In this document: piece after piece, positions 1-39,375 of the stretch | How positions within the stretch are numbered: the first letter of the stretch is position 1 | Layout: each line of letters starts with the position of its first letter | Source: Nitrosospira sp. Nsp14 | GTDB lineage: Bacteria > Pseudomonadota > Gammaproteobacteria > Burkholderiales > Nitrosomonadaceae | Direction of reading: 5' to 3' | Assembly: GCF_900113575.1 (NCBI RefSeq) | Contig: NZ_FOPV01000002.1 | Coordinates: 1 to 64,000 of the forward strand | DNA length: 64,000 nucleotides | Position numbers and translations under genes: made by a program | The notes under the pieces: model-generated | What the model was told of the DNA's origin: nothing | The model's database searches: none | The model's input: only the letters and a program-made list of their open reading frames with translations

Positions 1-1163
<1,163 letters not shown>

Positions 1164-3412: not shown

Positions 3413-4216
3413 GTGACATTTGAATCAATGGGCCCGTTCTCATCACTTTCCTCAGATCATCTTCAGCGCTACTTTCGTATCATTCAGGAAGGAGTTGCTG
3501 TGCGCCGGCATTTTGACCTGTTGAAATGGCTTCAGGGAGAAATGCAGCACTATCTGCCGCATGAAATCATGCTGGTTGCTTGGGGGGATTTTAGCTCCGA
3601 CGTTATACGATACGATATTGTCTCTGCATTACCAGGAGTCAGAACAGCGCATTCCGAACCGGCTGGTCTTTCTCCCTTGGTCCGTGGGCTCTATAATCGT
3701 TGGGTTGACGTAGGAAGAACGCCATTGATATCGAGTGTCGATGAAATCGGTATTCTTCCTGAGTATAATGCCCTGCAATGCTCATTTGGCAGGGCCTTGC
3801 ATGGCATGCGTTCATACGGCTTGCACGGCATCAGCGATAAACGGGGGCGTGACGAATGTCTTTATGTAATGTTCAGCTCGCAAGACAAACTCAACGATGC
3901 GACACTCAGCACAATAGAGATTCTGCTGCCCTATCTTGATTCTGCCTTGCGTCGGGTTGCACCTCTGCCGAGTTCTTCTTTTCAGGTACCATATCTGCCC
4001 AGTTCACGAGGCTGTGAAGACTTTAGACTGAGTGAGCGCGAAGCGGAAATCATGGATTGGGTAAGGAAGGGAAAAACCAACGCCGAGATCGGAAGCATCC
4101 TGTGCATAAGTTCATATACCGTGAAAAATCACTTGCATCAAATTTTCAGGAAGCTCGACGTGTATAACCGGATGCAAGCTGTTTCCAAGATAGAGCGGAG
4201 TCCGAGTCATGGCTGA
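3413..4216 (+). CDS. epsA: LuxR-type regulator EpsA of the XrtB/EPS locus
   Basis: This 267-residue protein has an N-terminal region without a known sensory signature and a C-terminal LuxR-type DNA-binding domain (about residues 203-258: LSEREAEIMDWV, GKTNAEIG, YTVKNHLHQIFRKL). The overall form matches the EpsA regulators found at the head of exosortase-B EPS clusters. The start is either GTG 3413 or ATG 3428; neither has a strong ribosome-binding site. The stop overlaps the start of the next gene by eight bases, so the two are co-transcribed. Control of the eps genes downstream is inferred from position. Confidence 0.8.
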   Translation: MTFESMGPFSSLSSDHLQRYFRIIQEGVAVRRHFDLLKWLQGEMQHYLPHEIMLVAWGDFSSDVIRYDIVSALPGVRTAHSEPAGLSPLVRGLYNRWVDVGRTPLISSVDEIGILPEYNALQCSFGRALHGMRSYGLHGISDKRGRDECLYVMFSSQDKLNDATLSTIEILLPYLDSALRRVAPLPSSSFQVPYLPSSRGCEDFRLSEREAEIMDWVRKGKTNAEIGSILCISSYTVKNHLHQIFRKLDVYNRMQAVSKIERSPSHG

Positions 4217-5627: not shown

Positions 5628-5960
5628 TGAATTCCTGAACAAGATGTTGGCGGGGCACTTTCGCAAAAGTGGGAGTCATAAGCGTGTCCCTGGGTGGATG
5701 AACACGTGCGGACACGGCGACGACTGAGCCACAAATGAGCGTGCAGTACTGTTTGGTAAAACTTTGTCAAAGATGGCAGGACGCGGGCTACAATCCCGGT
5801 TACGATATAGAACTTGCCAAGCGAGTGGACGCGAGAGCAGCGGGAATAAGGCCGGACAAGAGGGTCCCGCGACTCGTGATGGCCCGTAAGAACTATTGTT
5901 CAAAAAGGTTATGAGGTGATACCGTTGTGACACCGGCGCGCGGGGAACTGAAAATACATA
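5628..5960. other. Intergenic leader upstream of epsL
   Basis: This stretch has no gene. A short inverted repeat CACTTT/AAAGTG lies near 5657-5672. A possible sigma-70 promoter, listed separately, lies at 5764-5794. About 165 bases of leader then run to the epsL start. Confidence 0.5.
5764..5794 (+). promoter_or_regulatory. Possible sigma-70 promoter of epsL
   Basis: TTGTCA at 5764-5769 and TACAAT at 5789-5794 resemble the -35 and -10 boxes. The 19-base spacer is longer than the ideal 17. It lies at the right distance to drive epsL. The evidence is only motif matching. Confidence 0.35.
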
Positions 5961-28643: not shown

Positions 28644-31600
28644 TTATGTCGGGTCCGGAAGTTGTGTCAGCGCGCAGCCCGAGGCATTGACCTGATCTGT
28701 CTTCGCCGTGCCGGGACACCGGTCCGCACTGTCTGCAATTCCATCACCATCGCTGTCGCGCGTTGCTTCGTTAACGGTATAGATCGAGACCCCGCTCAGC
28801 GGAGGCAGGTCGATTGGCCAGTTCACCGGGGTACCTTGTGGAAACAGGTGGTAACGACCACAGTATTCAGGTGCAGTTTCCTCGTCCGGGCACTCGCGGG
28901 AACGTGTAACTCGATCCGGATTAGTAACAAGTTGAGTGCGTACTGTATTCTCGGCGGCAAGAAGTGGAACGATCTCCATATTGGCCACCCACAGGGATTG
29001 ACCAGGCAGAATATTCTCGAAGTCTAACCGCGCGCCGAGGTCCCCAGTCGCAGGATCGCCCGCAATAATTGTCTTCGCAGCGGTAAAGACAAAGGCGTAG
29101 CGGCGCCATTCCGTGCTTCCCGCGAACCCTTCGGACGCTGGCATCAAACGCTCATACAACAACGGGCCGCCGCGGCGGACGAGCGGCTTGATAAATTGCC
29201 CATCCATATCTATTTTCGCGTCAAAGCTGACGCGGTAGGAACGACCGGCTTCTACTGAAAACATTGGCGTATGGGCGAGAGTTACGGTTCCTCCAGCAGT
29301 TATTCGCAAGCATGGGCCGAATTCGCAAACTTGATGAGTTCTCGTTGAAAATGGTTCAGTCTGGTTCCAGGATGACCATCCGCGCATACCTTGTGTAAGG
29401 TCTCCGTTAGGAACGATGTTGCCACCCGCAGCCAGATAGGACGCATAGCCTTCCTGAGCAATTTGCGATGAGCCGACATCTTGTGATACACGCCCTTTAT
29501 TACTCGGGGCACCTTGCCATTCACCTAACGTGTAGGTGAGGTTGTGTGCTGCCCACGATTCGTTCAACATGCGCTTACTGAACAGGGCGGAATAATAATT
29601 TTTTGAAAGAACACCGAAATGGGTCACATCACCCACCTCTCCTTCTATCTTAATCGCGGGAGCCGATGTAGTTGGAAAAAAACTGTTTTCGAATACGTCG
29701 TTATTATTAACATCCCCCGTTGAGGCGATCTTTTGTGTTCGCTCCTGAAAAAAGATCTGATTATTGCGATTCCCGTACAGCAAGTTTCCGACGATCCGGT
29801 TAGAGTACGCGTCATTCACGTGTATCCCATAGTCAGCCCAGGCCACGGTGTTATTTTCTACTGCCATATTTCTAGAGTGGATATCGAGATAGATGCCAAC
29901 TCCATGCGAAAGAGCTCTGGAAATTACTATCCCATCAACATTGCCGCTGACTCGTTCGATCAGATTGGAGGCTATGCGAGTATTTGGCGATGAATAGTTG
30001 ACATAAATGGCGCCACAATCATTTATTTGAAGGCAACTATTTAAGACAGCATTATTTTCTATAACCCCGTTTGCGACAAACTCATTTGCTTGTGTCCAAA
30101 TTCCATTGCTCGCGGAAAAGTTAATGCGATTGCCTTTGATTGTCGCAAACGCTCCTACATAAACCGTGGCATAGGTGGTTGCGGGAAGACTCCAGATGCG
30201 ATCGCCAACGACAGCAACTGCGCTCTGATTAATGTCATTCTCTTCCACCCGAACAATTTTCGCGCCGGGGGCCGAGATGGCATCGCGCCCGGTTTGCCGA
30301 ATGCGATTGGAGATGATGCTGACGTTCCGGGCATTAGTAGCAACTATTCCCTCGCGTACGGTATTAGAAATACTTGCAGAGCGTAGAGTCAAATTCTGTG
30401 TATCCGTGAGATCGAGACCTACGGCTGTGTAACGGACGTCTATTCCCTCTACAACGATATTGGCTCGCCCCGAGAGGTCGATGCCTTTTTCGAGGACGCT
30501 CAGGCGCATCTGACGGGACGGGGCATTACTGTCAGGTACCCAAGCATAGGTAGCGGCTGTGTTCGAATCGTAGAGCCATTCACCAGGCGAGTCCAGCATA
30601 ACTAACTCATCAAGCAAAAAATAACCCTGCCCCTTCTCGATTTGATATCGGGTGGCGGGTTCGAAATGAAGCCTATCACCGTCAACGCGGGTTATCGTTA
30701 CCTCGTCGAGATGCCATGGGGCCGTGCGGATACGAAGTCGATTGCCCGGTCTGGGCATCGTTCCATCCGACAGTTTGAGACTGGAACCAATATCGATATA
30801 CGTACTTCCAATAGCCCCATTACTCTGTGAGACGGAATTACCGTTTCCCGCAGCTCTGGCATAAACAGAGTTCGGGCTGGTCGCATCATGACCGCGATTC
30901 GGGTGGTGTGCGGGAAGCAAAGGTAGATCGCCAGCCCATGCACCGAGGGGCGTAGCAAAAGCGGGTGTAAGACTTGCACTGCGGAAGTGAAACTTAACCC
31001 CTTCAGGGGGATTCTCGATGTCGAGTCTTGCATCGGTTACGTCGGAGCGTGGGATAAAGGCAATAGAGATTTTTTGCCATGCTCCGGTTCCAGCTATCCA
31101 TTGCACGGCAGAAATGGGATCGTAGGGAGGACTACCGCGCCTGACCAGTATCTTCACCTGGATGCCCGCTGGAGCCCGTAATGAAAGCCCCGCCCGGTAA
31201 GCAACCCCGCCTTGCACCTGAAACGTATTGCTGTTTACGAGGCTACCGCCCGGCTTCACACTGCTGGTGAACGCGGCGCAACCACTCGGTGAATCTGGAC
31301 AATTGGCCTCGTGGACAAGTTTTTGATCTCCGGCCGCGGACCAGGAGCTCCAACCTGCCACTTCCGATGCAAGTGAGCCATTCTGGAGTTTCTCGTTGGG
31401 CCACGCGGCCTTGTCAATGGTATCGCTGTGACGAAGCCAACTATGTGCGTCGATAACCTGACTGCCATCAATGGACGGAGGCGTACCGCAGGCCGAGGAC
31501 GCTGCACGAATGGTGATCGGTAGACCGGCGGTGCCAGAGTTATTGAGTCGAAGTGTCTGGATCCACTTGCTCCCACACTGGAGCTCTACGATGTCTCCGG

Positions 31601-31796
31601 GAGAAAGCGTTGCAGCTGCCAGACGGTTAAGGCTTTGCCAAGGGCCATCAGTTGATGTACTCGCCGCCCTGGCGAGGCGTTTTCCGGACCACATATCGTT
31701 ACCGAGCTTGGAGTCGATATAATAAGTTGTTGCGTACGCGTGGTGATGGGCAATAAAAAGAGAGAAGATAACGGCGAATTGTTTGATAGCGTTCAT
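28644..31796 (-). CDS. Large secreted parallel beta-helix protein with two CBM-like domains
   Basis: This 1050-residue protein starting at ATG 31796 has a signal peptide cut after AYA (about 22). Two related jelly-roll-like segments lie at about 137-280 and 795-945, both with a GWSSW start and a VRRG motif, resembling CBM4/9-type domains. Between them a right-handed parallel beta-helix runs about 440-720, with the repeats NVSIISNRI, VEENDI, VIENNAV and AVENNTV. The C-terminus carries a calcium-binding thrombospondin type 3 repeat (DSDGDGIADSADRCP, 1014-1028). Such helices are common in polysaccharide lyases, epimerases and adhesins; no catalytic set is evident. The frame extends to 32060, but those 88 residues contain no signal and look like leader. 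A promoter and riboswitch-like leader precede it. Confidence 0.8.
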   Translation of the reverse strand: MNAIKQFAVIFSLFIAHHHAYATTYYIDSKLGNDMWSGKRLARAASTSTDGPWQSLNRLAAATLSPGDIVELQCGSKWIQTLRLNNSGTAGLPITIRAASSACGTPPSIDGSQVIDAHSWLRHSDTIDKAAWPNEKLQNGSLASEVAGWSSWSAAGDQKLVHEANCPDSPSGCAAFTSSVKPGGSLVNSNTFQVQGGVAYRAGLSLRAPAGIQVKILVRRGSPPYDPISAVQWIAGTGAWQKISIAFIPRSDVTDARLDIENPPEGVKFHFRSASLTPAFATPLGAWAGDLPLLPAHHPNRGHDATSPNSVYARAAGNGNSVSQSNGAIGSTYIDIGSSLKLSDGTMPRPGNRLRIRTAPWHLDEVTITRVDGDRLHFEPATRYQIEKGQGYFLLDELVMLDSPGEWLYDSNTAATYAWVPDSNAPSRQMRLSVLEKGIDLSGRANIVVEGIDVRYTAVGLDLTDTQNLTLRSASISNTVREGIVATNARNVSIISNRIRQTGRDAISAPGAKIVRVEENDINQSAVAVVGDRIWSLPATTYATVYVGAFATIKGNRINFSASNGIWTQANEFVANGVIENNAVLNSCLQINDCGAIYVNYSSPNTRIASNLIERVSGNVDGIVISRALSHGVGIYLDIHSRNMAVENNTVAWADYGIHVNDAYSNRIVGNLLYGNRNNQIFFQERTQKIASTGDVNNNDVFENSFFPTTSAPAIKIEGEVGDVTHFGVLSKNYYSALFSKRMLNESWAAHNLTYTLGEWQGAPSNKGRVSQDVGSSQIAQEGYASYLAAGGNIVPNGDLTQGMRGWSSWNQTEPFSTRTHQVCEFGPCLRITAGGTVTLAHTPMFSVEAGRSYRVSFDAKIDMDGQFIKPLVRRGGPLLYERLMPASEGFAGSTEWRRYAFVFTAAKTIIAGDPATGDLGARLDFENILPGQSLWVANMEIVPLLAAENTVRTQLVTNPDRVTRSRECPDEETAPEYCGRYHLFPQGTPVNWPIDLPPLSGVSIYTVNEATRDSDGDGIADSADRCPGTAKTDQVNASGCALTQLPDPT

Positions 31797-32211
31797 AAGG
31801 GATTTCTGAATCGGATCGCCATGCGAATATGGGAAGTACGTCATGGTCTTATTGGGATTTAATCGCAGCCCCATGCGGGTACAGACTTTTAATAAACTCA
31901 AGGGCAAATACCAAAGCTTTTTCACAACCGTTCGAGCGGTAAAATGGAGCCCTGCGCGGCTATGTATCAACCGGGGGTTTACACTTACAGAAGGGCGAGC
32001 AATGGAGGCGGAAAAAATGCCGCCATGGGACAGATTTCTGGGTTTGCTACTGGAATTCACGTTCAGTTCCTCCTCTAGAAGCGAGGCCGAACCGCGTGAT
32101 GACGCTGCATTGAACGAAAACTAGACGGACGAAACGGAAACACAATCCGTACCATCTAAGCATTTTCGATAAATAGCTCTTCGCCGCAAGAAGCGGTGAA
32201 ACGAGTCGCGT

Positions 32212-32296
32212 TATCTGGCAGTCCTGCCGTCATGGGGCTTTTGCCCGGTAGACCGATGACTTTGCGTCGCCCGCTTTCGCGGGGTATGCCCTTTAC
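32212..32296 (-). promoter_or_regulatory. GEMM-I (cyclic-di-GMP-I) riboswitch-like leader
   Basis: Read on the minus strand, the segment holds AGGGCAUACC, then a CCGC-GAAA-GCGG hairpin with a GNRA loop, then GACGCAAAG. A second stem follows (GUCAU paired with AUGAC, enclosing GGUCUACC and a CGGGC-AAAA-GCCC-like tip), and the 3' end UGCC can pair with the initial GGCA. These are the landmark conserved parts and order of GEMM-I RNAs: GNRA loop, ACGCAAAG strand, CUA receptor-like bases and closing P1. The 3' linker (GGCAGGACUGCC) deviates from the usual form. A promoter match lies just upstream on the same strand, and the beta-helix gene is downstream. Ligand (c-di-GMP or cGAMP) and on/off sense cannot be read from the sequence. 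Confidence 0.65.
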
Positions 32297-32324
32297 AGAT
32301 TAAAAATCTGGTACACCTCTTACG

Positions 32325-35276: not shown

Positions 35277-36752
35277 ATGATCGATAAGCCCAATACTCAC
35301 CTCCAAAATCCTATGCAAATACTCGTTCCCGTTGTCCTGTCTGGCGGCTCCGGTACACGCCTTTGGCCGCTTTCCCGCGAAAAGTATCCAAAACAGCTCC
35401 TGCCCCTGATCGGGGATGATTCGCTATTGCAGGCTACGGTTCGTCGCATGGAGGGCATGGCAGGCGTGCAGCTCGGGGTGCCACTCGTGCTTTGCAATGA
35501 GGAATACCGTTTTATCATCGCCGAGCAATTGCGGTTGCTGGAAACAAAAGGCTCAATAGTGCTTGAACCAGTGGGACGCAACACCGCGCCGGCGTTGACT
35601 CTGGCTGCGCTTGCGGCGCTTGGTTCGGGAAATGATCCCGTCCTGCTGGTGATGCCGGCCGACCATGTGATTTCTGATATCACCACTTTTCAAGTGGCCG
35701 TCCGGCATGGGATGACGCTTGCAGAGGCAGGCGATATCGTTACCTTTGGCATTACACCTGACTCGCCCGAGACAGGTTACGGCTATATTCAGGGGGGCGA
35801 GTCGGTTGGAATGGAAGGTGCGCGCAGCATAGCGCGGTTCGTGGAGAAACCCGATCTTGCTACCGCGCAGGCTTATCTTGACGACGGATCCTATTTTTGG
35901 AACAGCGGCTTATTTATGATGAGAGCCTCGGTGTGGCTCTCGGCCATTGGGTCCTGTCGGCCGGATATTTTATCCGCCTGCCGCGCCGCTTGGGATAAAG
36001 GGTCGATCGATGGCGATTTCTTACGGGTAGACAAGGATGCGTTCACGCAGTGTCCGAGCGATTCGATCGACTATGCGGTGATGGAGCGCATAACCGCGAA
36101 CGACAGCACCCTGCCAAGGGGCGTGGTTATTCCGTTATCCGCCGGATGGTCCGACGTAGGCGCCTGGGATTCGCTGTGGCAGGTATTGCCCAAGGATCGT
36201 GAGGGTAACGTCACGCAAGGTGATACGCTGTTGCACGAATGCCGCAACACGCTCGTCATGGCGGAACATCGCCTGGTGGCATGCGTAGGAATAGAAAATA
36301 TGGTCGTGGTTGAAACGCCCGATGCCGTTCTTGTCGCCCACATGAGCAACACCCAGCACGTAAAGACAATAGTCGACAGTCTCAAGCGGGAAGGGCGACC
36401 CGAGGGCCAATTGCATCGAAAGGTCTTTCGTCCGTGGGGTTGGTACGATGGTGTTGATGCGGGCGAGCGCTTCCAGGTAAAGCGAATTGTTGTCAAGCCC
36501 GGCGCCGCCCTATCGTTGCAAATGCATCATCATCGTGCCGAGCACTGGATTGTCGTCCGAGGCACGGCGCAGGTGACGCGCGGGGACACAAGTTATCTTG
36601 TATCGGAAAACGAGTCCACATTTATCCCGTTAGGCACGCGTCACCGATTGGAAAATCCCGGGTGTGTGCCCCTCGAGATGATCGAGGTTCAATCGGGCTC
36701 GTATCTCGGCGAGGATGATATTGTTCGGTTTGAGGATGTTTACGGGCGATAA
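35277..36752 (+). CDS. manC: Mannose-1-phosphate guanylyltransferase / mannose-6-phosphate isomerase
   Basis: This bifunctional type-II protein has about 491 residues. The N-terminal nucleotidyltransferase has GGSGTRLWPLSREKYPKQLL. The C-terminal cupin has the isomerase motifs GWYDGVDAGERFQVKRI and the metal-binding QMHHHRAEHW. It makes GDP-mannose, the substrate of gmd, and so links this block with the fucose genes upstream. The start is uncertain: ATG 35277 was used and ATG 35313 is equally possible. Confidence 0.93.
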   Translation: MIDKPNTHLQNPMQILVPVVLSGGSGTRLWPLSREKYPKQLLPLIGDDSLLQATVRRMEGMAGVQLGVPLVLCNEEYRFIIAEQLRLLETKGSIVLEPVGRNTAPALTLAALAALGSGNDPVLLVMPADHVISDITTFQVAVRHGMTLAEAGDIVTFGITPDSPETGYGYIQGGESVGMEGARSIARFVEKPDLATAQAYLDDGSYFWNSGLFMMRASVWLSAIGSCRPDILSACRAAWDKGSIDGDFLRVDKDAFTQCPSDSIDYAVMERITANDSTLPRGVVIPLSAGWSDVGAWDSLWQVLPKDREGNVTQGDTLLHECRNTLVMAEHRLVACVGIENMVVVETPDAVLVAHMSNTQHVKTIVDSLKREGRPEGQLHRKVFRPWGWYDGVDAGERFQVKRIVVKPGAALSLQMHHHRAEHWIVVRGTAQVTRGDTSYLVSENESTFIPLGTRHRLENPGCVPLEMIEVQSGSYLGEDDIVRFEDVYGR

Positions 36753-37330: not shown

Positions 37331-37487
37331 ACGTGTCTGTCTAGAGGAAGCGTATGGATGAGCTGCAACCTGGACGTGGTTAGACCAGACCGAACGGCCT
37401 ATTGACCACTTTACAATGAAGAGTATCGTAGAGGAATATCAACGGTTGTGTAGGCAGTTGATTCTGTTATAAGCGACTGTTTATAAA
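37331..37487 (+). repeat. Structured tandem repeat, copy 1
   Basis: A 78-nt core (37331-37408) contains GGATGAGC, a CTGG-11 nt-CCAG hairpin and a GACCGAACGGCC segment ending in TATTGACC. A second conserved block, TGTTATAAG to TTTATAAA, starts exactly 134 nt after the core start. The core matches copy 2 at 57 of 78 positions without a gap by my count. Strand of function is unknown; the next forward genes are the PEP-CTERM pair. Confidence 0.8.
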
Positions 37488-37559
37488 TATCATTTTATTT
37501 TCTTTCGCATCTCTGCATAAGCAACCTGACACAACCGGTTCCTGTTCTTGGGATCGTTA

Positions 37560-37716
37560 TATTGTCGTTTTAGACGAAGCTTATGGATGAGCTGCCGTCT
37601 GGGTGTTTTCTAGCCAGACCGAACGGTCTATTGACCGATACGCCGCAGAAGGTAAGCTGTGTGAGCGTCGAGACTGTAACCCTCGGCCCTCGATGTTTTA
37701 AACTATTGTTTAAAAA
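37560..37716 (+). repeat. Structured tandem repeat, copy 2
   Basis: The core at 37560-37637 can form a perfect GTCTGG/CCAGAC stem with an 11-nt loop. GACC-GAAC-GGTC follows, and its GGTC arm can pair instead with the next GACC. The tail block TGTTTTAAAC to GTTTAAAA again starts 134 nt from the core start. It is 63 of 78 identical to copy 3 with no gap. It lies 229 bases after copy 1. Confidence 0.85.
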
Positions 37717-37779
37717 TCAGGTTGATCTTATTAGCGCGCGGTAGCGAAAGGCCTCCCGTGTACCATTGAGGCATAAGAA

Positions 37780-37936
37780 TATTGTCCTCTTGGACCATGT
37801 TTACGGATGAGCCACCATCTGGGCGTTTTCCCGTTAGACCGAACGGTCTATTGACCGGTACTCAATTGAGAGTAGTCTGGGGATACGTCGGGGCCGTGCC
37901 TAACGGGTCTCGGTGTTTATAAGAGCTTGTTTAGAT
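37780..37936 (+). repeat. Structured tandem repeat, copy 3
   Basis: The core at 37780-37857 opens with a GTCC-TCTT-GGAC hairpin where copy 2 has GTC/GAC. It keeps the CTGG stem through G-U pairs (UUAG) and carries the same GACCGAACGGTCTATTGACCG end. The tail block TGTTTATAAG to GTTTAGA starts 134 nt after the core start. It lies 220 bases after copy 2 and about 105 bases before the first PEP-CTERM gene. Confidence 0.85.
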
Positions 37937-38023: not shown

Positions 38024-38041
38024 ATTATAAAGGAGGTAAAA

Positions 38042-38605
38042 ATGATTAAGACTTCTTTGAAACTAACTGCTGTTGCCGCACTGTTGGCGGGCGCAAGTGT
38101 CGCGGCAAACGCCGCGACGACGGATCTTGGTGCCATCTCGGGTACTGACCCCAAAACGTTTTCGGGTGTTGTTCAAGGATCCGGTACAAGTATCAATGAT
38201 ATCTTCACCTTTAGTTTGGATCAGAACAACGTATCTTCGGGTTACAGTGTGGTAAATATCCCGCTGAGCTTCACGGGCGGGGAATGGAACACCGCGCTGG
38301 CCACGCTGACACTATCGTCAAACGCTGACGGAATCGTGGGTAACAGCGACGATCAAATGCTGGCGACGGCGATATGGAATCAGGGAAACAATAGCAATAA
38401 CTTGCTTAGCATCGCATATGACTCAGCCATTACTGGCCCCGCGTATATTCAGATCACGGGAGTTACGGATGGTGGCAATGGCGGTATCTATTCCGGGGCG
38501 ATCGCTGCCGCGGTTCCAGAACCAGAAACTTACGCGATGTTGCTCGCTGGCTTGGGGCTGATGGGTGCGGTCGTTCGGCGTAGAAGCAGCCGCAAGACCT
38601 CGTAA
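38042..38605 (+). CDS. PEP-CTERM sorting-domain protein, paralogue 1
   Basis: This 187-residue secreted protein has a signal peptide (MIKTSLKLTAVAALLAGASV, cut after ANA near 21), a Thr/Ser/Gly-rich central part and a C-terminal PEP-CTERM signal. That signal is VPEPETYAML, a hydrophobic helix, then VVRRRSSRK. Exosortase would cleave near the PEP motif and release the protein from the inner membrane towards the envelope or EPS matrix. A near-consensus AAAGGAGG sits six bases before the ATG, suggesting strong expression. It is the tandem paralogue of the next gene and has its own terminator. Confidence 0.93.
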   Translation: MIKTSLKLTAVAALLAGASVAANAATTDLGAISGTDPKTFSGVVQGSGTSINDIFTFSLDQNNVSSGYSVVNIPLSFTGGEWNTALATLTLSSNADGIVGNSDDQMLATAIWNQGNNSNNLLSIAYDSAITGPAYIQITGVTDGGNGGIYSGAIAAAVPEPETYAMLLAGLGLMGAVVRRRSSRKTS

Positions 38606-38653: not shown

Positions 38654-38682
38654 AAAACGGCCTCCAAAAGAGACCGTTTTTT
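38654..38682 (+). terminator. Intrinsic terminator after PEP-CTERM paralogue 1
   Basis: AAAACGGCCTC and GAGACCGTTTT form an 11-bp stem with one mismatch and a CAAAA loop, followed by further T residues. A G-run/C-run hairpin (38619-38644) precedes it. Confidence 0.8.
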
Positions 38683-38759: not shown

Positions 38760-39311
38760 ATGATTAAAAATTCGATGAAGCTAACCTTCGTCGCGGCGAT
38801 GCTGGCTGGCATGAGCGTTGGAGCGAACGCCACCACGACGGACCTGGGTACAGTAACTACTGATCCCGTTACGTTTGGCGGTACAGTGTCAGGAAGCGGC
38901 GTGACCTTTAGCGATATCTTCAGTTTTAACCTTACGGAGCCGAATGTGAGTTCGGGCTTCTCGGTTGTAGATGTTCCACTAAGTGTGGGAGGAACAAACT
39001 TCGACGGCATACTCACTGGGCTGTCCCTTTTTTCGGCCGGGGCCAACGGGATCGTGGGCGGGGGTGACGATACGCTGCTGCAATCAAGTACAAGTACAGA
39101 CGGTAACTCTCTTAGCTTAAATTATGACCAACCTCTGTCCGGCGCGTCTTTTATCACAGTTACTGGGATATCGAACGGCACGGCGGGAGCAATCTATGCT
39201 GGCGCAGTGGCTGCCGCGGTTCCGGAGCCAGAAACTTACGCCATGTTGCTCGCTGGTCTGGGGCTGATGGGTGCTGTTGTTCGGCGCAGAAGTAACCGTA
39301 AGATATCATAA
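38760..39311 (+). CDS. PEP-CTERM sorting-domain protein, paralogue 2
   Basis: This 183-residue protein is closely similar to the gene before it in signal peptide (MIKNSMKLTFVAAMLAGMSV), central motifs (TTDLGT, FSDIFSFNL, NVSSGFSVV, GIVGGGDD) and PEP-CTERM end (VPEPETYAML to VVRRRSNRK). It has the same AAGGAGG ribosome-binding site. It is a probable exosortase substrate exported to the envelope or matrix. The pair arose by tandem duplication including leader and terminator. The divergence of the central part suggests age or diversifying selection. Confidence 0.93.
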   Translation: MIKNSMKLTFVAAMLAGMSVGANATTTDLGTVTTDPVTFGGTVSGSGVTFSDIFSFNLTEPNVSSGFSVVDVPLSVGGTNFDGILTGLSLFSAGANGIVGGGDDTLLQSSTSTDGNSLSLNYDQPLSGASFITVTGISNGTAGAIYAGAVAAAVPEPETYAMLLAGLGLMGAVVRRRSNRKIS

Positions 39312-39346: not shown

Positions 39347-39375
39347 AAAAACGGCCTCTCTTGGAGGCCGTTTTT
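39347..39375 (+). terminator. Intrinsic terminator after PEP-CTERM paralogue 2
   Basis: AAAAACGGCCTC and GAGGCCGTTTTT form a perfect 12-bp stem with a TCTTG loop and T-tract. An ACGGGG/CCCCGT hairpin lies just before it (39322-39341). The arrangement matches that of the first paralogue. Confidence 0.9.

Follow-up and report, generated by a model that had tools for sequence, protein, structure and literature searches.

Three tandem repeats upstream of PEP-CTERM genes in Nitrosospira: a probable threefold duplication of a manC tail, operator, promoter and hairpin leader

Introduction

What are three tandem, gapless repeats doing in the DNA between manC and a pair of PEP-CTERM genes? The array (37331–37936) lies in the window, by which we mean the whole 64-kb stretch of Nitrosospira DNA analysed here, and precedes two genes of the FxDxF family. 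It occupies one end of a polysaccharide cluster of the XrtB type, which opens with epsA, wcaJ, epsL, epsD, epsE, epsF and xrtB. A sequence-only reading of the region had suggested a tandem regulatory RNA, an array of small RNAs (sRNAs) or a protein-binding array.

The published regulation of PEP-CTERM genes is by sigma-54 together with PrsK–PrsR (Haft et al. 2006, PMC1569441; RpoN-dependent pepA, PMC9850573). Haft et al. (PMC1569441) also pointed out that there must be further regulators and motifs, still awaiting discovery. We propose, with a probability of about 0.7, that the repeats are a tandem threefold duplication of one gene-control unit consisting of a manC tail, a dyad operator, a promoter and a hairpin leader.

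Results

The copies start at 37331, 37560 and 37780, and a repeat search of the window recovered the same family, with spacings of 229 and 220. Their 78-nt core aligns without gaps, the identities being 57/78 (copies 1 and 2), 63/78 (copies 2 and 3) and 49/78 (copies 1 and 3), and a TGTT-headed block begins 134 nt into each of the three. The starts, the gapless core, the first two identities and the second block had all been described from the letters alone, as had the position upstream of PEP-CTERM genes, and each was reproduced exactly or found as described. Could such repeats arise by chance? The next-best ungapped match to the core of copy 2 anywhere in the window is only 36/78, so they could not. 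The features discussed below are collected in table 1.

Table 1. Features of the array and of its neighbourhood, in window coordinates.
Feature	Position	Strand	Evidence or remark
epsA, LuxR/CsgD-type regulator, candidate dyad binder	3413..4216	+	TIGR03020 285 bits, cut-off 170
Weaker related dyad TGGCCCGTAAGAACTATTG upstream of epsL	5880..5898	.	2 mismatches, not significant alone
manC, mannose-1-phosphate guanylyltransferase / mannose-6-phosphate isomerase	35313..36752	+	TIGR01479 682 bits
Copy 1, decayed manC tail RVCLEEAYG*	37332..37361	+	expected register; p 0.45 alone
Copy 1, dyad (CAGACCGAACGGCCTATTG)	37386..37404	.	three-copy conservation
Copy 1, promoter-like pair TTGACC-N16-TATCGT	37402..37429	+	44.1 bits, lowest model score of the three
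Copy 2, decayed manC tail IVVLDEAYG*	37561..37590	+	22/36 to manC end, p 0.0025; D5 repeat family
Copy 2, dyad (CAGACCGAACGGTCTATTG)	37615..37633	.	kept in all three copies
Copy 2, promoter-like pair TTGACC-N16-TAAGCT	37631..37658	+	63.1 bits
Copy 2, predicted leader hairpin CGTCGAG...CTCGATG	37666..37695	+	fold; genus-wide covariation
Copy 3, decayed manC tail IVLLDHVYG*	37781..37810	+	24/36 to manC end, 0/2000 shuffles; D5 repeat family
Copy 3, dyad TAGACCGAACGGTCTATTG	37835..37853	.	fits TAGNCC-N4-GGNCTATTG without mismatch
Copy 3, promoter-like pair TTGACC-N16-TAGTCT	37851..37878	+	68.6 bits
Copy 3, predicted leader hairpin GTCGGGGCC...GGGTCTCGGTG	37886..37915	+	at inferred mRNA 5' end
Shine–Dalgarno AGGAGGT of first PEP-CTERM gene	38031..38037	+	sequence
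FxDxF-family PEP-CTERM gene 1, presumed target of copy 3	38042..38605	+	NF038126 89.5 bits
FxDxF-family PEP-CTERM gene 2, without own element copy	38760..39311	+	NF038126 85.3 bits

Where does the 5' part of each copy come from? It matches the terminal codons of manC, which end in ...DIVRFEDVYGR*; manC is the conserved neighbour of the element across the genus, and this part of every repeat stems from the 3' end of that gene. Against shuffled sequences the match is significant for copies 2 and 3, and not for copy 1 alone. The relatives hold younger stages. In G003, copy 2 retains 96 nt that are 76% identical to the 3' end of manC (E 2e-17); in G001 the manC tail is almost intact, behind a further PEP-CTERM gene; and in both genomes each copy is still followed by a PEP-CTERM gene of its own. 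In G015 and in G022 a single gene is preceded by two copies with a spacing of 229 nt. A tree pairs copy 3 of the window with the gene-proximal copy of G015, with modest support, and gives copy 1 a very long branch (1.93). We conclude from these alignments that the repeats derive from the junction between manC and the promoter. Because of this origin and the younger stages in relatives, we take the array to have grown by repeated copying of that junction. Repeats that look like structured RNA can apparently result when a gene–promoter junction is copied.

How widely does the element occur? The sequence-only reading had named a lack of related elements in other genomes and of covariation among the grounds that would refute it; both related elements and covariation were found. 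A covariance model (R1), from which G017, G019 and G020 were left out, matched all 23 Nitrosospira genomes (best match in each, E 2e-22 to 4e-11) and none of the 102 other Nitrosomonadaceae genomes. The three genomes left out gave 2, 3 and 3 matches, each before a PEP-CTERM gene. Across the 23 genomes the element is nearly always at the manC locus, and nearly all strong matches stand directly before a PEP-CTERM gene. Most species have a single unit, placed as an mRNA leader directly before a PEP-CTERM gene that has a Shine–Dalgarno sequence. The genome of the window contains a second, weaker element (L166 2551–2650, minus strand, which is G000 contig C24:5550–5649; E 5e-4), with the core CCAAACGGTCTATTGA, in front of a PEP-CTERM gene that is not part of the polysaccharide cluster. 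The predicted element is thus conserved throughout the genus in front of PEP-CTERM genes.

What has been kept in all three copies? It is a dyad of 19–22 bp, TAGNCC-N4-GGNCTATTG. Over the three copies 20 of its 22 positions are invariant, versus 47 of 143 elsewhere (Fisher p = 2e-7, a test that presupposes the absence of gene conversion between copies). That the dyad is retained so much more strictly than the flanking sequence speaks for a functional array of binding sites. The consensus of 24 aligned copies runs CTAGNCC-NNN-CGGTCTATTGAYC, 16 nt, TANNCT and then a hairpin. At about 20 bp the dyad has the length of a LuxR-type class II site, in the form CAATAGNCC-N4-GGNCTATTG and in near-symmetric variants. 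The string GACC-GAAC-GGTC-TATT-GACC, which had been taken for two mutually exclusive hairpins, we read instead as this DNA dyad overlapping a -35 element.

The putative promoter is the pair TTGACC-N16-TANNCT, its 16-nt spacing being kept in nearly all of 28 copies. Measured from the centre of the dyad, the -10 starts 31 bases downstream. If its first base is taken as -12, the centre falls at -42.5, and for copy 3 the +1 so inferred would lie near 37885. Class II activators have their site at about -42.5. The -10 hexamers are poor, as is expected of activator-dependent promoters, and a generic promoter scan flagged only copy 1, close to chance. Position and poor -10s together favour activation rather than repression. 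Copy 3 is the closest both to the consensus and to the gene.

Is there structure in the RNA as well? There is, in a hairpin other than those listed in the sequence-only reading. RNAalifold chose it unprompted, with the consensus (A/G)TCGRG...CTCGRTG, and it would begin at about +2 of the inferred transcript, where stabilizing stem-loops of mRNA 5' ends usually stand. In a MAFFT alignment of 24 copies, built on sequence only and not fitted to structure, 93.4% of its cells are paired, versus 30–46% in slid controls. Seven of its eight pairs have changed on both sides, as have 20 cells, and 0 of 500 shuffles reached as high on 4 of 5 measures; kinship inflates such counts, pairs changed on both sides being among the measures least prone to it. 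The predicted leader hairpin therefore has the support of base-pair covariation. The GTCC/GGAC pairing that had been put forward sits in decayed manC codons rather than in this hairpin. We set it and the CTGG/CCAG pairing aside on grounds of origin, the first being a relic of the manC tail, and not by the covariation test, whose alignment begins 3' of most of this part.

Copy 1 lacks the family hairpin. Its dyad has been kept all the same, as has that of copy 2, so the role that these two copies retain is most likely the predicted binding of a protein. The leaders are about 130–180 nt long, with further predicted pairing; beyond the hairpin their sequence diverges freely. Rfam 15 returned nothing in the region, either at gathering or at E up to 10, and nothing in the leaders of relatives.

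Is the dyad confined to the manC locus? The exact 20-mer GACCGAACGGTCTATTGACC has no match over 84,980 genomes, so its wider form was sought through the relatives and the model. Outside the manC locus the exact pattern TAGNCC-N4-GGNCTATTG occurs 13 times in the genus, and 10 of these sites stand directly before PEP-CTERM genes or degenerate copies of them. The targets of the 10 belong to three unrelated sequence families, and the start codon is mostly 84–160 nt away. Nitrosospira multiformis has 39 PEP-CTERM genes (PMC1569441), roughly 1–2% of its genes, so that 10 of 13 is a large excess even when orthologues are counted once. With one mismatch or fewer, total matches come near those of a reversed-pattern control; our counts are therefore limited to exact or positionally conserved dyads. 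Many genomes have one positionally conserved dyad in front of epsL or epsD, accompanied by a TACC(T/G)-like -10 whose spacing is similar; the epsL-upstream position of the window (table 1) has a dyad in G015, G003 and G021 too. The putative operator is thus found again within the eps operon and in front of further PEP-CTERM genes.

Which protein might read the dyad? EpsA (TIGR03020) is encoded in all 23 Nitrosospira genomes and in 6 of the 102 other family members. In the Nitrosomonas genomes that have epsA (4/4), a one-mismatch dyad closely follows this gene and precedes a PEP-CTERM gene; when all the EpsA loci were shuffled, 0–2 dyad sites appeared even at three mismatches. Because the dyad occurs in front of further PEP-CTERM genes and of epsL or epsD, and in Nitrosomonas next to epsA, we take EpsA as the leading candidate; that it is the regulator which reads the dyad we consider slightly less than an even bet. 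Near-perfect dyads were not found beside EpsA in G133 and G139, both Nitrosomonadaceae that have the protein. Beyond the family the attribution to EpsA becomes weak: order-wide, EpsA occurs in 69 of 399 genomes and a near-perfect dyad in only 10, with little overlap. G409, from another family of the same order, has three dyads before PEP-CTERM genes; two of these, at L251, are 186 nt apart and have manC on one side and a PEP-CTERM gene on the other, a layout much like that of the window. It gave no EpsA match, and the EpsA profile run over its polysaccharide contig found no homologue. Either a different regulator acts there, or the genome has gaps, or some other protein of the LuxR type reads the dyad. 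The layout itself may predate Nitrosospira, or it may have arisen by convergence.

Nitrosospira has an expanded set of EpsA proteins, 2–8 paralogues per genome, and in the genome of the window at least two paralogues adjoin PEP-CTERM-like genes (L247 and L248). In the open-access literature on EpsA, PEP-CTERM, exosortase and methanolan we found neither a published target site for EpsA nor an earlier description of the dyad.

Discussion

How would such a unit work? A dimeric activator would bind the dyad at about -42.5, where LuxR-type activators occupy their class II site, and the best candidate for this role would be EpsA, whose gene heads the same XrtB polysaccharide cluster. The promoter would be of the sigma-70 type, its -35 overlapped by the operator, and the leader would open with a short hairpin that probably shields the mRNA against 5'-end-dependent decay. 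Copy 3 would drive the PEP-CTERM gene, while copies 1 and 2 would serve as extra operators and/or weaker upstream promoters. Shared control of PEP-CTERM and eps genes would mean that the matrix polysaccharide is co-expressed with its PEP-CTERM proteins.

Do copies 1 and 2 have a function at all? They might be nothing but decaying traces of old, tandemly duplicated units of manC tail, promoter and PEP-CTERM gene, the genes having since been lost. Model scores do drop with distance from the gene (68.6, 63.1 and 44.1 bits), copy 1 combines its branch of 1.93 with the loss of the family hairpin, and G003 and G001, with a gene after each copy, would represent the intact form. But decay alone does not account for a dyad that is nearly invariant between flanks that are not (20/22 versus 47/143, p 2e-7), nor for the second copy also kept 229 nt upstream in G015 and G022. 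Gene conversion could mimic this retention, yet it would not be expected to be confined to the dyad. We regard functionless relics as unlikely, although they are the rival to be taken most seriously. If the dyad is a binding site, is it one for a repressor, such as a TetR-like protein, rather than for a LuxR-type activator? An operator over the -35 is in the classic position for repression, and TAGACC-N4-GGTCTA has half-sites similar to those of the NemR box. A dyad centred at about -42.5 in front of a weak -10 suits class II activation instead, and the recurring neighbour, EpsA, is a LuxR-type protein; a repressor site is the less convincing choice and, in our judgement, improbable.

Two further readings place the function in RNA. 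The leader hairpin could be a sensing element of the PEP-CTERM mRNA, whether riboswitch, attenuator or thermometer, as its strong covariation, its fixed place and the additional pairing predicted in leaders of 130–180 nt would allow. Against this, it is a single short stem whose loop varies in length and sequence, no conserved junction or ligand-binding core accompanies it, and the remaining leader is unconserved and shows no similarity to Rfam; we give a sensor little credence. An sRNA array, in which every copy would be a separate gene equipped with a promoter and a hairpin, has still less to recommend it. Every copy does have a promoter-like pair, copies 2 and 3 have the hairpin, tandem sRNA genes sometimes occur, and a weak terminator-like site (37536–37556) follows copy 1. 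But good terminators are absent after copies 2 and 3, terminator-like sites are no commoner than in shuffles, Rfam has no match and divergence is free 3' of the hairpin. Because single copies elsewhere are ordinary leaders placed directly before a gene, as in most species, the sRNA array is unsupported and we think it very improbable. Of the three possibilities that the sequence-only reading had left open, it is thus the protein-binding array, in the form of tandem promoters, that gains ground.

How does the proposed tandem control unit compare with known systems? Like the PrsK–PrsR/sigma-54 system, it has a conserved element in long non-coding DNA directly upstream of PEP-CTERM genes, a binding site that is sometimes repeated and surface proteins tied to exopolysaccharide. 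It differs in having a dyad over a TTGACC/TANNCT promoter, followed by a covarying hairpin, in the setting of an XrtB/EpsA cluster. On the coding strand of the region no -24(GG)/-12(GC) pair was found within 3 mismatches, the best having at least 4, and this signature is also absent from most single-copy leaders. From these comparisons the unit looks like part of a second, sigma-70-type system of PEP-CTERM control beside sigma-54/PrsK–PrsR. The manC–PEP-CTERM spacers of G021, G011 and G014 contain good sigma-54 candidates (1–2 mismatches) near the dyad and upstream, and in these genomes dual control is possible.

The lux box is an inverted repeat centred at -42.5 (PMC3376562). Our dyad shares with the class II sites of LuxR an inverted repeat of about 20 bp and a candidate regulator of the LuxR superfamily, and from the inferred start it would also share the -42.5 position. 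It has its own sequence, however, and EpsA has a CsgD-like HTH by HMM and no known ligand. EpsA is the XrtB/PEP-CTERM-associated regulator that heads the window's polysaccharide cluster, and the dyad is here proposed as its site. A 5'-terminal stabilizing stem-loop is found in the ompA leader. Ours would likewise be a stem-loop at the 5' end, as inferred, of a surface-protein mRNA, with structure kept rather than sequence, although there is no sequence relation between the two.

The fuller picture is one that we advance tentatively, at rather less than even odds: the dyad would be the operator of EpsA and would define a sigma-70-type regulon beside PrsK–PrsR/sigma-54, coupling XrtB exopolysaccharide to PEP-CTERM proteins through a structured leader, with copying of the unit tuning output. 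If this is true, ammonia-oxidising bacteria would have such a regulon, its main target would carry a new structured mRNA leader, and operator and leader would have been amplified by way of the manC–promoter junction. Joint switching of PEP-CTERM proteins and exopolysaccharide has so far been known only for the sigma-54/PrsR class. A motif, a promoter geometry, a candidate regulator and a target list in soil ammonia oxidisers make the question of co-regulation directly testable.

Other features of the window deserve mention. Near-identical terminator hairpins (AAAACGGCCTC...) end both PEP-CTERM genes, at 38654–38681 and 39347–39374, which suggests that the two genes themselves arose by tandem duplication. 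A c-di-GMP-I riboswitch (32214–32300, minus strand; 69.7 bits) lies directly upstream of an open reading frame (28644–32060, minus strand) for a secreted, probably beta-helix protein of 1138 aa, antisense within the polysaccharide cluster; it would be a second signal input into the matrix locus. At the edge of the window, adjoining this cluster, the open reading frame 108–1148 (minus strand) resembles an IS21-family transposase (IstA-like, by eye).
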